This document shows positions 13,603 to 19,757 of a stretch of DNA of 43,178 nt, piece after piece; the first letter of the stretch is position 1; the number at the start of each line of letters is the position of its first letter. The notes beneath the pieces were generated by a model. That model saw only the letters and a program-made list of their open reading frames with translations. It ran no database searches and was not told the origin of the DNA. Origin of the DNA: Methyloglobulus morosus KoM1 (GTDB taxonomy: Bacteria > Pseudomonadota > Gammaproteobacteria > Methylococcales > Methylomonadaceae); assembly GCF_000496735.2 (NCBI RefSeq), contig NZ_AYLO01000059.1, positions 8,553 through 51,730 of the forward strand. Reading direction: 5' to 3'. The position numbers and the translations under genes are program-made.

Positions 13603-14310
13603 TCAAGCTCGCGCGCAAACCCAAACGTCAACCCGGCTTGCTCCCGCCTTTTTTAATTCAGCCGCCAACGCATTCGCCGTAGATCCCGTCGTCATCACAT
13701 CATCCAGGATCGCAATATGACGGCCACGTAAGGGTTTTTGTATGGAAAACGCACGGCGCAAATTCTGGCGGCGTTTTTTGGCGGACAAGCCAGTTTGGTG
13801 CGGCGTGTCTTTATGGCGGACGCAACTGGCGCAATCGATGGGAATTTTTAGGGAAAGCGAGACGGTTCGGGCAATTTCCAGTGCTTGGTTGAATCCCCGC
13901 TCATGATAGCGGGCTTTGTGCAGCGGTATGGGGATAATGCAATCCGGTTTTTCTGCCGTTTTGTCAAGGTAGTCAGCCAATAGGCTACCCAGCAAGCGGG
14001 CATTTTTGAATTGTGCGCCAAATTTTAACCCTGTAATCAAATATCGGATTTCGTCTTGATGGATAAAGGGTGCGTGGGTTTCATCAAATGCAGGTGTTTC
14101 ACTGAGACAACGACCGCAGAGCACAGGGACGGCAATAGGGGAAGCAAAGGTTTCCGCGCAACGATAACAGCACAGGTTGTTCCTAGGCAGGCGGTGATAA
14201 CAGGATTCGCAAATGTCTAATCGGTTAAAGCCGTTGTTACCGCACAAAATACAGGTAGGCGGGAACAGGGTGTCCTGTATAATGGCTAACCAGTTGTAAA
14301 CTTTTTTCAT
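13603..14310 (-). CDS. comF: ComF family protein (phosphoribosyltransferase-like)
   Basis: A 235-residue protein with the ComF layout. The N-terminal zinc-binding part is cysteine-rich (C20, C23, C34, C37, C47/C48, C51, C65, C68). A type I phosphoribosyltransferase fold follows, whose PRPP loop is ILDDVMTTGS (201-210). ComF/GntX proteins are linked to DNA uptake and use; in E. coli gntX lies beside bioH, a similar biotin-gene neighbourhood. The N-terminus (VYNWLAIIQDTLFPPTC) is typical, so the ATG at 14308-14310 is likely right. Its codons 3-6 coincide with the left half of the BirA-type operator, so BirA might also affect this gene. Confidence 0.92.
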   Translation of the reverse strand: MKKVYNWLAIIQDTLFPPTCILCGNNGFNRLDICESCYHRLPRNNLCCYRCAETFASPIAVPVLCGRCLSETPAFDETHAPFIHQDEIRYLITGLKFGAQFKNARLLGSLLADYLDKTAEKPDCIIPIPLHKARYHERGFNQALEIARTVSLSLKIPIDCASCVRHKDTPHQTGLSAKKRRQNLRRAFSIQKPLRGRHIAILDDVMTTGSTANALAAELKKAGASRVDVWVCARA

Positions 14311-14326
14311 TGCTATGGGTTGACAA
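14294..14326. promoter_or_regulatory. BirA-type biotin operator
   Basis: Imperfect dyad TTGTAAACT (14294-14302), a 15-base spacer, GGTTGACAA (14318-14326). The established BirA half-sites are TTGTAAACC and GGTTTACAA with a spacer of about 15, so each half matches 8 of 9. The right half contains TTGACA (14320-14325), a perfect -35 for bioB, although a convincing -10 is not evident. Binding of biotinoyl-AMP-BirA would block bioB transcription. The left half lies within the first codons of divergent comF. Confidence 0.8.
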
Positions 14327-14380: not shown

Positions 14381-15373
14381 ATGTCTGCAAACCCTGAACG
14401 TATTCGCCATAACTGGCATTTGGATGAAGTCTTGGCATTGTTTGCCCTGCCGTTCAACGACTTGATTTATCAGGCACAAACTGTCCATCGGCAGTATTTC
14501 GATCCGAACGAAGTCCAGGTCAGCAGCTTATTGAGCATTAAGACCGGCGCGTGTTCGGAAGATTGCGGCTATTGCCCCCAAAGCGCCCGTTACGATACCG
14601 GCTTGAAAGCGGAGCCGATGATGTGCGTTGAGGATGTGATTGCAGCCGCGCAGCAGGCTAAGTCACAAGGCGCATCCCGTTTCTGCATGGGCGCAGCTTG
14701 GCGTAGACCGAAGGATAAGGATGTCGAAAAAGTTGTGGAAATGGTGCAAGGCGTCAAAGCGTTAGGCATGGAAACCTGCGTTACTTTGGGCATGTTGACC
14801 GATGAACAAACCGCCAAACTGAAAGAAGGTGGCTTGGATTACTACAACCACAACCTGGATACGTCCGAAGAATTCTATTCCGAAATTATCACCACCCGCA
14901 CCTATCAAGACCGCCTGGATACGTTGACACGGGTGCGCGATGCCGGGATTAACGTCTGCTGCGGCGGCATCGTCGGCATGGGCGAAAGCGACCAAGACCG
15001 CGCCAACCTGCTGATCGAACTGGCCAATATGCCCAAGCATCCTGAAAGCGTCCCCGTCAACATGCTGGTGCAAGTCGAAGGGACACCCCTGATGGGTGCG
15101 GAAGAGCTTGATCCATTCATGTTTATCCGAACCCTTGCCGTAGCGCGGATTATGATGCCACAATCCCGTGTGCGGCTCTCTGCCGGACGCAACAACATGA
15201 GTGACGAGATGCAGGCGTTATGCTTCCTGGCCGGGGCGAATTCGATTTTTTATGGGGAGAAACTGCTGACGACGGATAATCCGCTGACTAATCAGGATAA
15301 GGTTTTGTTTGAGAGGTTGGGGGTGAATATGGGTGGGTTACAATCAACAGCTATGCATAGGAATGATTCATGA
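14381..15373 (+). CDS. bioB: Biotin synthase BioB
   Basis: A 330-residue radical-SAM enzyme that inserts sulfur into dethiobiotin, the last step of biotin synthesis. The [4Fe-4S]/SAM cysteines are C58, C62 and C65 ([13 protein letters not shown]). Ligands of the second cluster are present in [31 protein letters not shown] and the RLSAGR arginine. GGGAGA lies 8 bases before the ATG. It is the first gene of the biotin operon, downstream of the BirA operator. Its TGA overlaps the next start (ATGA), coupling it to an unrelated abortive-infection-type gene instead of bioF. Confidence 0.98.
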
Positions 15374-16215
15374 ACGAAGATTCTAACCAAGAAAGCAACG
15401 AGCAAGTCGGAGGAATAGTTAAACAAACAATCGATTCTGCTACAGCGTTGGCTAAAGCTGTTCCGATTTATGAAGACGCAATTCAGCCTCTAGCAAAGGA
15501 AACTGGTAAAGCTCTGGGTACATTGGGGAAGGCTGTTAATGTTGCATTGGCACCTATTTCGCTTGTTGTATGGGGTTACGATCAGATAAAAGAATTTTTG
15601 GAAACCAGAGTAACTGAAAAACTAGAGAACGTGCCAGAAGATAGAATAACAACCCCTCCTACGAATATCGTTGGTCCAGCCGTAGAAGCACTAAAGTTCA
15701 CTGGGCAAGATCCGACCCTCCAAGATATGTTTGCCAATTTAATAGCCAACTCCTTGGACTCGAAAACTGTTCTAGAAGCACATCCATCATTTGTTGACAT
15801 GATTAAAAACCTTTCACCCGATGAAGGTTTGATTCTTAAACTATTTGCTTCGACGCAGAATTTCCCAATGGTCGATGTTAGGTTAAATAACAAAAATGAT
15901 AGCTCATTCAATGTGTTACATAGAAATGTATCCCAAGTAGGAGTCTTATCAAACTGCAAACATCCTCAACTAACCGCAAATTATCTAGATAATCTTTGTC
16001 GTTTAGGAATTCTTGAAATTCCATCAGGCCAAAGAATAAATGACCCGAAAGCATATGAAATATTAACTAGCGACCCAAGCCTAGAGCAGCTAAAAAATCA
16101 AATTGATGGAAACGAAGAATTCTTTATTGGATTCGAGCAAAAATTTATTCAAGCCACTGGATGGGGGAGGCAATTCATTAACGCATGCATAATAGATAAA
16201 CGGGTTAAAGGTTAA
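15370..16215 (+). CDS. Abi-alpha / DUF4393 family protein
   Basis: A 281-residue protein resembling DUF4393 (Abi_alpha, an abortive-infection-associated family). It has an N-terminal amphipathic region with [22 protein letters not shown], then a hydrophobic [22 protein letters not shown] stretch, [25 protein letters not shown] and [16 protein letters not shown], all characteristic blocks as I recall the family. The start overlaps the bioB stop in ATGA, so it is translationally coupled to bioB and should share the BirA-controlled transcript. Base composition is visibly more AT-rich than the flanking bio genes and a hairpin repeat lies 17 bases after its stop, suggesting insertion into the operon. 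Molecular function is not established. Confidence 0.8.
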
Positions 16216-16231
16216 ATGTATAACAAGTATC

Positions 16232-16282
16232 GTAGGGTGTGTTTTACGCACCAAATACTAAGGTGCATGGAATGCACCCTAC
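16232..16282. repeat. Hairpin repeat of the GTAGGGTGC family
   Basis: Imperfect inverted arms GTAGGGTGT (16232-16240) and GCACCCTAC (16274-16282) with an inner GCACC/GGTGC pair. This is another dispersed palindrome family, placed between the Abi-alpha-type gene and bioF. A T-rich stretch (CTTTTATTT) follows on the plus strand, so it could attenuate transcription into bioF. Confidence 0.75.
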
Positions 16283-16303: not shown

Positions 16304-17512
16304 TTGTTTGATTTATCCCTAAAGCTAGACGAACGGTCGCAACAGGGTTTGCGCCGCTCAAGACGCATTGTTGAATCCCCGCAAGGCATTAACCTGATTT
16401 GCGACGGCAAAGCTGTCGTCAACTTTTGCAGCAACGATTACTTAGGCTTGGCTAACCATCCTGATGTCATCAATGCCTTCAAGTCTGCATCGGACAAATA
16501 CGGCGTGGGCAGCGGCTCGGCGCATTTGATTTGCGGCCACAGCCGTGCCCATCATGCGTTGGAAGAGGAGCTGGCGGCCTTTACCGGACGTGATCGCGCT
16601 TTGCTGTTTTCCACGGGTTACATGGCGAATATGGGTGCGATTTCGGCCTTGGTCGGGCGAGGCGATACGGTGTTGGAAGACCGTTTGAACCATGCGTCCT
16701 TGCTGGATGGCGGTTTGTTGTCGGGGGCGAGGTTTAAGCGTTATGCCCATGGGGATGTAGAGCATTTGCAAAATCTATTAGGAAATAGCGAAGCAAATAA
16801 GAATTCTGTTGATATCCCTCACCCTAGCCCTCTCCCAAAGGGAGAGGGGATTTCCCGTAGGTTGATTGTGACTGACGGCGTGTTCAGCATGGACGGCGAT
16901 ATTGCGCCTGTGCAAGCCTTGTCGGCTGTCGCCAAACGGCATGATGCTTGGTTGATGGTGGACGATGCTCACGGGTTGGGTGTATTGGGCGACAATGGCG
17001 TCGGTATTCTTGAAGAATTGAAGCTAAGCCAAGACGATGTGCAGGTACTTGTTGGCACATTGGGCAAGGCATTCGGCACATTCGGTGCTTTTGTCGCAGG
17101 CTCGGAAGAATTGATTGAAACTTTGATCCAACGGGCACGGCCTTATGTCTATACCACTGCCTTGCCGCCTGTCATCGCGGAAGCGACGCGCACCAGCCTT
17201 AAGCTTATCCAATCGGAAGGCTGGCGGCGCGAAAAGCTCAGGCAGTTAACCAGCCGTTTCAGGACGGGCGCGGAACAATTAGGCTTGCCTTTGATGGCAT
17301 CGACTTCGCCCATTCAACCGATTTTAATTGGCGAATCAGAACAAGCCGTTGCCGTTAGCAACGCCTTATTTAACCAAGGCTTTCTGGTCAGCGCAATCAG
17401 GCCGCCCACTGTGCCTGTCAATGCTGCAAGATTACGCGTGACTTTTTCCGCAATGCACGAAGAACTTCAAATCGATCAGTTACTGGATGCCCTCGCTAAA
17501 GCCATAGCATGA
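16304..17512 (+). CDS. bioF: 8-amino-7-oxononanoate synthase BioF
   Basis: A 402-residue PLP enzyme that condenses pimeloyl-ACP with alanine. Family landmarks are CSNDYLGLA, the H..L...L core, MVDDAHG (D220/H223) and the Schiff-base lysine K255 in [11 protein letters not shown]. It is about 18 residues longer than E. coli BioF. The extra sequence is at residues ~161-184 and contains [10 protein letters not shown], encoded by a dispersed palindrome. The only usable start before the conserved region is TTG at 16304, 22 bases after a hairpin repeat and preceded by TAAG. No in-frame ATG occurs until residue 107. The end overlaps bioH in ATGA. Confidence 0.96.
16816..16849. repeat. CCCTCTCCC hairpin repeat inside bioF
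   Basis: CCCTCACCCTAG precedes a perfect 9-bp stem, CCCTCTCCC (16828-16836) and GGGAGAGGG (16840-16848), with loop AAA. The piece is in frame with bioF and is translated as [11 protein letters not shown] related intergenic piece occurs at 1628-1651. The match to an extragenic palindrome family explains the length difference from typical BioF. Confidence 0.85.
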
Positions 17513-18279
17513 CCAACATTCATACGGAAACTTTCGGGCAGGGCAAGCCTATCGTGCTGGTCCACGGTTGGGCAATGCACAGCGGCATTTGGCGGGCGTT
17601 TGCAAAAGGACTGGCGAAACATTATCAAGTAACCTTGGTTGATTTGCCTGGGCATGGACGAAGTGGGGCGATTAAGCCATTCACGCTTGAAACGGTTAGC
17701 ACAGCCTTGGTAGGGGCCATCCCTAATGAACCTTGTTGCTGGCTAGGCTGGTCACTCGGTGCAGCTTTCGTGCTGGAGATTGCCCGTCGTTTTCCAAGCC
17801 GTGTCAATAAAGTGACCTTACTTGCCGGAACACCGTGTTTTGTAAAAAATGATGCCTGGTCGGGCATGGATGTTACGGTTCTCGACAAGTTCGCGGAAAG
17901 TTTGCAACAAGATGTACATACTACTTTGCTCCGGTTTTTGTCTTTGCATATTAAAGGCTTGGATAACCAGAAGGCCACTTTGCAGGAGTTAAAAACCTTG
18001 GTTTTTGAAACGCCAGAACCCAGTCAACATACCTTGCAGCAAGGATTGGATATCCTTAAACAAGCTGATTTAAGGGATGTGTTTGCCAATCTTAAAATAC
18101 CCGTTGCGGTTATTTTAGGTCGACTGGATACCTTAATCCCCGTTTCCGTCGGGGTAAAGATGCATGAATTATTGCCAGACGTGGCTTTAACCGTGATTGA
18201 CAGGGCAGGGCATGTGCCATTCTTGTCGCATCAAGAAGCATTGGTTAATGCAGTACGTCGTTTTATGGATAAGGGATAA
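17509..18279 (+). CDS. bioH: Pimeloyl-ACP methyl ester carboxylesterase BioH
   Basis: A 256-residue alpha/beta-hydrolase that removes the methyl group from pimeloyl-ACP methyl ester, ending BioC-initiated chain synthesis. The triad falls at the positions known from E. coli BioH: S82 (GWSLGA), D207 (GRLDTLIP) and H235 (AGHVPF). The oxyanion-side motif [10 protein letters not shown] is present. The start overlaps the bioF stop (ATGA) and the end overlaps the bioC start (TAATG), so it is translationally coupled on both sides. Confidence 0.97.
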
Positions 18280-19064
18280 TGCGGGTAAAGACCAAGATAA
18301 AACAATCGTTTGCAATGGCTTCGACAACTTATGATAGCGTTGCCTTATTGCAGCAGAAAGTTGGTGGACAGCTCATACAGCGGATAGGGAATGTTGGTCG
18401 GCTTGATACGGTTATCGATATAGGCTGTGGTACGGGTTTTGTTGTCAACGAGATTTTAGGTCGAAAACACGTTGTACCCGAACAAATTGTTGCGCTGGAT
18501 ATTGCTTTGCCCATGTTGCTGCTGGCTCGCAGTAAATTGAAAAATAATAATAAGGTTACTTTTCTCTGTGCGGATGCAGAATATTTGCCGCTACAGGCAC
18601 AATCGGCGGATTTAGTTATTTCCAACTTAGCCTTCCAATGGTGCAATAACCTGGAGAAAACATTGGCCGACATAAAGCGAATATTGAGGTCGGAAGGCCA
18701 GTTTTATTTCACCACCTTTGGGCAGCAAACATTGTCTGAGTTAAGGTACGCCTGGCAAGAAGTTGACGATTATGCCCATGTGAATACGTTTGTCAGTGCG
18801 GGGCAATTAACGGATTATCTGTATCAAGTGGGATTTAAGCAGGTCGAGGTGGAAACTTGCACTTATATTTCAACCTATGAATCCGTTTGGGACTTGATGG
18901 CCGAGTTAAAGCAATGGGGTGCACATACTGTATTGGAAGGCTGCAATAAGCAGCTGACGCGCAAATCAGCCATGCAACGCATGATTTGTGCTTACCAACA
19001 GCAAGACAAAAATGGCTTGGTGTCGGCGACGTTTGAAGTCATTACAGCTGCGGCCAGGGTATAA
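18279..19064 (+). CDS. bioC: Malonyl-ACP O-methyltransferase BioC
   Basis: A 261-residue class I SAM-dependent methyltransferase that methylates malonyl-ACP to start pimelate synthesis. Motif I is VIDIGCGTG (45-53), the acidic residue of motif II is D74 (VALDIA), and CADAEYLPL and DLVISNLAFQW follow. The N-terminus KTKIKQSFAMASTTYDSVALLQ matches the BioC pattern (FS.aa..YD..a..Q). The ATG shares a base with the bioH stop. It pairs with BioH to make pimeloyl-ACP. Confidence 0.96.
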   Translation: MRVKTKIKQSFAMASTTYDSVALLQQKVGGQLIQRIGNVGRLDTVIDIGCGTGFVVNEILGRKHVVPEQIVALDIALPMLLLARSKLKNNNKVTFLCADAEYLPLQAQSADLVISNLAFQWCNNLEKTLADIKRILRSEGQFYFTTFGQQTLSELRYAWQEVDDYAHVNTFVSAGQLTDYLYQVGFKQVEVETCTYISTYESVWDLMAELKQWGAHTVLEGCNKQLTRKSAMQRMICAYQQQDKNGLVSATFEVITAAARV

Positions 19065-19070
19065 CTCAAG

Positions 19071-19757
19071 ATGGAGCAAGGGTATTTTATTACCGGAACG
19101 GACACCAACATAGGCAAAACCTGGGCAACCGTCGCCCTGATGCAGTATTTCAAAAATCAAGGGAAATCGGTTATCGGCATGAAGCCCGTGGCTTCAGGAT
19201 GCACCCTCAAAGACGGTATGCTGGTTAATGATGATGCGCTTTTGCTCCAGGAACATGCGACAGTCAAGCTGGATTATCGGCAAATTAATCCTTATGCTTT
19301 TTCACTCCCCGTTTCCCCGCATATTGCCGGGAAGGATAATCCCGTCGATTTGGCTGTTATTGTTGATGGTTTTAATGCCATCAGCGATTACGCCGACGCC
19401 ATCCTGGTTGAAGGGGCTGGCGGTTGGTATTCGCCACTGAATGAAAGCCAGGATAACAGCGACCTTGCGGCGGCGCTAGGCTTGCCTGTGCTACTCGTAG
19501 TGGCGATTAGGCTAGGTTGTATCAACCACGCAAAGTTATCTTACCAGGCAATAATAAGCAGCGGTGTTAGTTGTGCTGGTTGGATTGCGGTTTGCACCGA
19601 CCCTAATGAACGGTGCATCGAAGAAAATATCGCCATGATAAAAAAACGGCTGGATGCGCCGTTGCGGGGCGTGCTGCCCTATAAGGATGTTCCCAATTTT
19701 GATGAATTGGCAGGCGGCTACTCGTTTGCAGCTTCACTGTTACTTAGCCAGTCTTGA
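19071..19757 (+). CDS. bioD: Dethiobiotin synthetase BioD
   Basis: A 228-residue ATP-dependent carboxylase that closes the ureido ring of 7,8-diaminopelargonate. The P-loop GTDTNIGKT (residues 9-17), the KPVASGC loop, ND for metal binding and VEGAGGWYSPL are typical. It lies 6 bases after bioC and is the last biotin gene; bioA, the preceding step, is missing from the window. It ends only 6 bases from the convergent gspD stop, with a run of seven T between them. Confidence 0.97.
   Translation: MEQGYFITGTDTNIGKTWATVALMQYFKNQGKSVIGMKPVASGCTLKDGMLVNDDALLLQEHATVKLDYRQINPYAFSLPVSPHIAGKDNPVDLAVIVDGFNAISDYADAILVEGAGGWYSPLNESQDNSDLAAALGLPVLLVVAIRLGCINHAKLSYQAIISSGVSCAGWIAVCTDPNERCIEENIAMIKKRLDAPLRGVLPYKDVPNFDELAGGYSFAASLLLSQS

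Follow-up and report, generated by a model that had tools for sequence, protein, structure and literature searches.

A recurrent cargo slot between bioB and bioF in the biotin operon of Methyloglobulus morosus KoM1 and its relatives

The bioB-bioF junction in the biotin operon of Methyloglobulus morosus KoM1 holds a gene of the Abi_alpha family (here called abi), and the same junction holds other, unrelated genes in congeneric genomes. The features found in the window, by which we mean the whole stretch of DNA analysed (43,178 nucleotides), are listed in Table 1. As a whole, these observations are probably best explained by a recurrent cargo slot between bioB and bioF that is refilled horizontally and whose occupant is read from the bio promoter, with the Abi_alpha protein aborting infection. 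The junction would act as such a slot in the genus and, more rarely, elsewhere in the family. Its cargoes comprise one or a few genes each, lie behind bioB in the operon direction, and differ between relatives; two thirds are of the defence or toxin-antitoxin type. They would arrive horizontally and be replaced by recombination in the conserved genes on either side, bioB and bioF, which is the simplest route. The bio promoter would drive transcription of the occupant, helped by the overlap with bioB.

Table 1. Features of the biotin operon and its bioB-bioF junction, in positions of the window.
Feature	Position	Strand	Basis
comF-like phosphoribosyltransferase with zinc ribbon, divergent upstream neighbour	13603..14310	-	ORF list
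BirA-type operator TTGTAAAC-16-GGTTGACAA, between comF and bioB	14294..14326	+	pattern and scoring
bioB, biotin synthase	14381..15373	+	ORF list, Pfam
variable bioB 3′ end after ...FERLGVN, 5′ edge of the slot	15329..15373	+	tail comparison
AGGA, Shine-Dalgarno-like	15359..15362	+	sequence read
Abi_alpha gene (abi), 281 aa, slot cargo	15370..16215	+	ORF list, Pfam, PADLOC, structure model
GTAG-type REP unit, first of inverted pair	16232..16252	+	sequence read
GTAG-type REP unit, second of pair; with the bioF leader, 3′ edge of the slot	16262..16282	-	sequence read
bioF, TTG start	16304..17512	+	ORF list, Pfam
bioH-like alpha/beta hydrolase	17509..18279	+	ORF list, Pfam
bioC-like methyltransferase	18279..19064	+	ORF list, Pfam
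bioD, dethiobiotin synthetase	19071..19757	+	ORF list, Pfam

The operon runs in the order bioB-abi-bioF-bioH-bioC-bioD. An earlier note on this DNA had placed abi between bioB and bioF with an ATGA overlap, and the coordinates confirm this: abi starts at the A preceding the bioB stop codon TGA, and the AGGA lies 7 nt 5′ of its ATG. The assignment to the Abi_alpha (DUF4393) family also held, with a match of the product to Pfam PF14337 (E 1.9e-58; 198 bits vs a cut-off of 29) in which protein residues 70–273 align with positions 2–196 of the 196 in the model. In PADLOC, the protein matched the candidate PDC-S47 (E 3.9e-60). An NCBIfam search with the abi protein gave a chance-level match only (E 0.17), and phmmer against the PDB returned nothing convincing (best E 0.012). 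The AT-rich, foreign look that the note had remarked upon is borne out by the composition of abi (GC 38.9% and GC3 30.9%) in comparison with the five bio genes (GC 44.8–52.5% and GC3 46.7–61.6%), and 7 of 424 segments of 846 bp were equally AT-rich. Both direct neighbours of abi are bio genes, and no phage or plasmid genes lie directly beside it. The bioB tail 5′ of abi contains TACAAT at 15339–15344, which could be a −10 box or part of a promoter of abi's own; it does not figure among the sites listed by a separate scan.

The predicted structure of the abi protein has a mean pLDDT of 82.5, with residues 1–47 below 50. Foldseek matches of this model with E ≤ 0.001 were confined to chains of PDB 3H35 (ABO_0056), an uncharacterised protein (best E 1.5e-4; TM 0.59 by target length). 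The VIA comparison with 3H35 gave Z 11.4 and an rmsd of 6.2 over 142, which is large; the next row had Z 6.0. A MarR-like winged-helix fold was considered for Abi_alpha and rejected, its rows (Z 6.0 and lower) being inseparable from background. One hydrophobic stretch (residues 49–67; mean Kyte-Doolittle 1.61) is suggestive only of a membrane role. The one Abi_alpha family member for which the literature covered gave a test, that of Enterococcus faecalis, causes abortive infection with premature lysis, and was reported to be similar to 3H35 (PMC6356687). That protein, encoded by prophage 6 of strain V583 (PMC6356687), shares both the Pfam family and the 3H35 likeness with abi; it resides on a prophage of a Gram-positive bacterium, whereas abi is a lone chromosomal gene in a bio operon of the methanotroph family. 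By analogy, abi would act like its E. faecalis homologue, through early lysis or death of phage-infected cells.

A search for the abi protein in 61 genomes, its own included, was positive in two: KoM1, with two copies, and G036, from another genus. The Pfam Abi_alpha model matched in 7 of 237 family genomes. The second KoM1 copy (L241 6134–6925, contig C106) is 25% identical and lies between a spermidine synthase and a VapB-like antitoxin ORF, while the copy in G036 is near an N6 methylase with a specificity domain. Relatives at E ≤ 1e-5 were present in 66 of 50,697 phage records and 7 of 72,556 plasmid records; 34 viral contigs came from a pattern-limited scan. This sporadic distribution, extending to phages and plasmids, indicates that the Abi_alpha family is mobile, and the position of abi in the bio operon is most readily understood as a single acquisition.

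The genus set comprised eight genomes, including KoM1 (G000) and metagenome-assembled genomes (at least G001, G003, G004, and G007), and bioB and bioF were linked in six. All six junctions hold cargo, with gaps of 799–1272 bp. The occupants are Abi_alpha in G000, a 320-aa relative of HrgA (so named by plasmid annotation only) in G001, a 260-aa protein without a family in G002, an Abi_C/AbiJ-like protein in G003 and a DUF3644/PDC-S19 protein in G004 (both by family-model matches), and a CopG-type and weak BrnT-like pair (BrnT below its cut-off) with a 134-aa ORF in G005, where the junction additionally holds an unassigned 122-aa ORF on the opposite strand. In G006, neither bioB nor bioF had a true match. 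The operon of G007 is split, with bioB before a homoserine dehydrogenase and bioF behind an aminotransferase with a REP dimer between (L034 3482–5365; L288 84–2649), an arrangement resembling the outcome of a swap of halves between two operons at the bioB-bioF junction. The uninterrupted junction that the earlier note had proposed to look for was sought in the congeners and not found, other cargo being there instead. The occurrence of abi in the bio operon of all relatives, which the note had named as counting against its idea, was not seen either: abi stands there in one of the 153 family genomes read at the bioB end. Since the congeners carry unrelated cargo, it is the slot that recurs and not the association of Abi_alpha with biotin.

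The edges of the slot can be read from the flanking genes. In all seven genus genomes read, BioB is kept up to ...FERLGVN (FERLGLN in G007) and then diverges, the ends in G002 (MSGSKYN) and G007 (MSESNY) still being similar to that of the sister genus (MGGSNYA). The bioF leader is common to most of the genus genomes read. These varied bioB ends and the shared leader place the variable part between the last bioB codons and the bioF leader. In G000, G004, and G007 the inverted REP pair 5′ of bioF is clear; G001 and G003 have a degenerate form of it, and none can be recognised in G002 and G005. GTAG-tagged REPs are a described class (PMC3733652); the KoM1 genome has 33 matches (≤2 mismatches) vs 0 for a reversed control, and Y1-type transposase domains are present. 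The idea that REP dimers generally mark the landing sites of defence genes was considered and rejected: around 12 REP stretches, the neighbours were by eye mostly housekeeping or unknown genes, with transposase-like ORFs in two stretches and a Phd-like antitoxin in one. With such neighbours, the REP looks generic. Separately, bioF carries an in-frame extra, REP-type-looking stretch, CCCTCACCCTAGCCCTCTCCCAAAGGGAGAGGGG, at 16750–16870 of the window, and BioF has 402 aa in comparison with 382 in G002 and G007.

Across the family, 214 genomes had a bioB match, and we read 152 of these as well as G002, in which a contig end truncates bioB. In 24 of the 152, bioF was not in reach, and the set of linked junctions numbered 129. 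The median bioB-bioF gap in linked genomes is 11 bp (n = 127). By hand count, 12 of the 129 junctions are occupied, and by a mechanical ORF rule 13. Outside the genus, the occupants are a 184-aa protein without a family (G011), a protein of DUF7674, a family of unknown function (G030), HicA alone, as a partial cargo (G203), a methyltransferase piece with two HNH proteins, also partial (G207), an AAA ATPase with a partner, matching PDC-M31 (G211), and PemK with a small ORF 5′ of it (G241). The occupied gaps measure 332–2591 bp. In 10 of the 12, the cargo starts −8 to 99 bp from the bioB stop, and in G005 and G207 at 178 and 252 bp, respectively. Gaps of at least 250 bp outside the 12 occurred in G088, G178, G181 (no ORF of at least 80 aa), and G210; the last contains an 84-aa same-strand ORF beneath a longer opposite one (142 aa), stands outside the hand count, and is the thirteenth mechanical case. 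G213, with an HNH-like ORF behind bioB and bioF elsewhere, was left out of the count. In G211, bioH and bioC are fused into a single 523-aa reading frame (L237 3661–5232). In other families of the order, none of 20 genomes had a gap of at least 250 bp, the largest being 118 bp. Among the best 30 loci of the wider Gammaproteobacteria (28 from other orders), bioF was in reach in 25, and at two of these junctions the gap was large and held an ORF, judged by eye to encode a methyltransferase (L261 2322–3260) and a membrane protein (L275 2487–2984), neither being of defence type.

The occupied state is concentrated both at this junction and in this genus. Same-strand ORFs of at least 80 aa lie in the gap at 13 of 129 bioB-bioF junctions vs 3 of 237 junctions further along the operon (nominal p 1.6e-4, kinship ignored), the later ones giving 3/107, 0/69, and 0/61 in order by the same rule. 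Gaps of at least 250 bp number 16 at bioB-bioF vs 6 at the later junctions (5, 1, and 0; nominal p 3e-4, kinship ignored). By hand counts, 6 of 6 linked junctions in the genus are occupied, in comparison with 6 of 123 in the rest of the linked family (nominal p 1.6e-7, kinship ignored). The three later junctions with a same-strand ORF are those of G011, G030, and G111 (88 aa in the last). Between bioF and bioH, G011 carries ORFs of 181 and 173 aa (L052 3238–4258), the former without a Pfam family, and G030 carries a 78-aa ORF flanked by genes for two PIN-domain proteins (L053 3429–4518), so the bioB-bioF junction is not the sole site.

All 12 hand-counted cargoes lie on the operon strand, as read by hand, and in a pairwise comparison no two cargo proteins were related at E ≤ 0.1. 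Matches to defence or toxin-antitoxin families (Pfam/PADLOC), some of them weak or partial, were obtained at 8 of the 12 occupied loci; the four occupants without such a family-model match are the 260-aa and 184-aa proteins, the DUF7674 protein, and the 320-aa protein annotated as HrgA. The PADLOC base rate at 1e-5 was one in ten window neighbours, the single case being comF against ShosT, a match that we read as phosphoribosyltransferase likeness. A single ancient insertion was rejected as the source of the pattern, since the BioB tree requires seven occupancy changes, with the genus as one clade. This FastTree tree (172 rows; G002 absent; unlinked bioF coded as empty) is weakly resolved, with 37 of 167 inner branches starred.

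The earlier note had also put abi behind a BirA-type operator, and this is where it was found: the site upstream of bioB is the only match in the window to the pattern TTGTAAACN-(14–17)-GGTTNACAA, which matched in 0 of 100 shuffles. Scored out of 17, the operator-like sites of G000, G001, G004, and G005 reached 16, 15, 16, and 14, respectively, in comparison with at most 13 for shuffles. G003 and G007 scored 12 each, and the occupied genomes of other genera 14 (G011), 12 (G030), 13 (G203), 13 (G207), 13 (G211), and 10 (G241). Because these scores are weak in part of the occupied genomes, we refrain from extending biotin control to every occupant. The KoM1 genome encodes a 332-aa BirA in which HTH_11 lies above the Pfam cut-off; the bifunctional ligase/repressor model is likewise above its cut-off, and the narrower model TIGR00122 is below. 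An operator 5′ of the operon, together with a BirA bearing a helix-turn-helix, is what characterises a BirA regulon, to which the KoM1 operon is assigned by these predicted features. Judging from its direction and overlap, the occupant is probably expressed via the bio promoter.

Several other explanations bear on the same observations. Insertions might simply be harmless at this junction, the occupants being neutral or served by promoters of their own and their direction reflecting selection to keep bioF-bioD transcribed. We consider such passive tolerance rather unlikely. It would accommodate the extra, by eye non-defence genes at two of the 25 linked junctions in the wider Gammaproteobacteria, the cargo taken up between bioF and bioH, the partial cargoes in G203 and G207, and the possible −10 box brought by abi. 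However, it does not lead one to expect defence or toxin-antitoxin matches in 8 of 12 occupants, cargo starts so close to the bioB stop in 10 of 12, or intact unrelated ORFs in all six linked genus genomes. The earlier note had offered an insertion sharing the transcript as its alternative; this came closer to what was found, except that the insertion is recurrent and not a one-off. Its main proposal was a specific link in which scarce biotin lifts BirA repression and thereby raises the expression of a defence gene. The operator-like scores above the shuffled range in G000, G001, G004, and G005 and the presence of a BirA with a helix-turn-helix are in keeping with this proposal, but the same slot in the congeners carries unrelated genes, and G003, G007, and the occupied genomes of other genera score 10–14, mostly within the shuffled range. 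Moreover, a prototroph needs its own bio genes, and the bio operon is therefore probably never silent. We thus regard a specific biotin-defence link as very unlikely.

Capture by an integron, with the cargoes as cassettes inserted at a secondary site by IntI, appears most improbable. Chromosomal integron cassettes are exchangeable one-gene cargo in one direction, and the slot cargoes resemble them in being exchangeable, mostly single-gene, and all in one direction. The IntI model exceeded its cut-off in 9 of the 14 genomes in which it was sought, so that chromosomal integrons may be widespread in this clade, and the best homologue on a plasmid has an integron integrase and an IS1595 transposase less than 5 kb away. 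Unlike integron cassettes, however, none of the 12 cargo tails has paired strict core sites (RYYYAAC...GTTRRRY) at attC spacing, the KoM1 genome has only partial IntI matches below the cut-off, and no integrase or transposase was recognised among the ORFs listed at the slots, part of which were scanned. We prefer the recurrent, horizontally refilled slot. A tentative extension of this reading, possible though doubtful, is that the bio operon offers a ready-made promoter slot, in which selection would keep promoterless immunity genes because feedback through BirA gives them steady, low, never-silent expression, with refilling as phages change. If true, this would be a defence hotspot set by an expression niche and not by a mobile-element target.

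Slots of one or few genes in housekeeping operons are easily missed by surveys that seek islands, and are easily mined. This junction points to candidates for immunity genes, such as the 260-aa (G002) and 184-aa (G011) orphans, and makes it testable whether operon readthrough keeps lone defence genes expressed. Among the matches listed in our literature searches, mainly of open-licence papers, there was no description of a defence slot inside a biotin or other biosynthetic operon. Defence hotspots with core flanks are known; as far as these searches reach, one as small as this and located within a biosynthetic operon is apparently undescribed.

The defence-island hotspots of Escherichia coli are like the bio slot in that one site holds defence cargo varying between strains, and differ from it in that their cargo is usually on mobile elements (PMC10121019), whereas the bio slot has no recognised mobility gene. 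In that survey, sites of three or fewer genes were scored as empty, and a slot like this one would thus go uncounted (PMC10121019). In Pseudomonas aeruginosa, cDHS1 and cDHS2 are core defence hotspots, cDHS1 spanning 1–224 kb with a median of 26 kb, and recombination through conserved flanks is one potential route proposed for cDHS1 (PMC10250203). The bio slot is a core-gene-flanked hotspot in having shared flanks around unrelated cargo in which known or candidate defence genes are frequent, and is not one of the large islands with mobility genes. It shares with cDHS1 and cDHS2 the fixed core-gene flanks, the varied defence cargo, and the lower GC (PMC10250203); unlike cDHS1, it holds mostly one gene, lies within a biosynthetic operon, and is filled in the operon direction.
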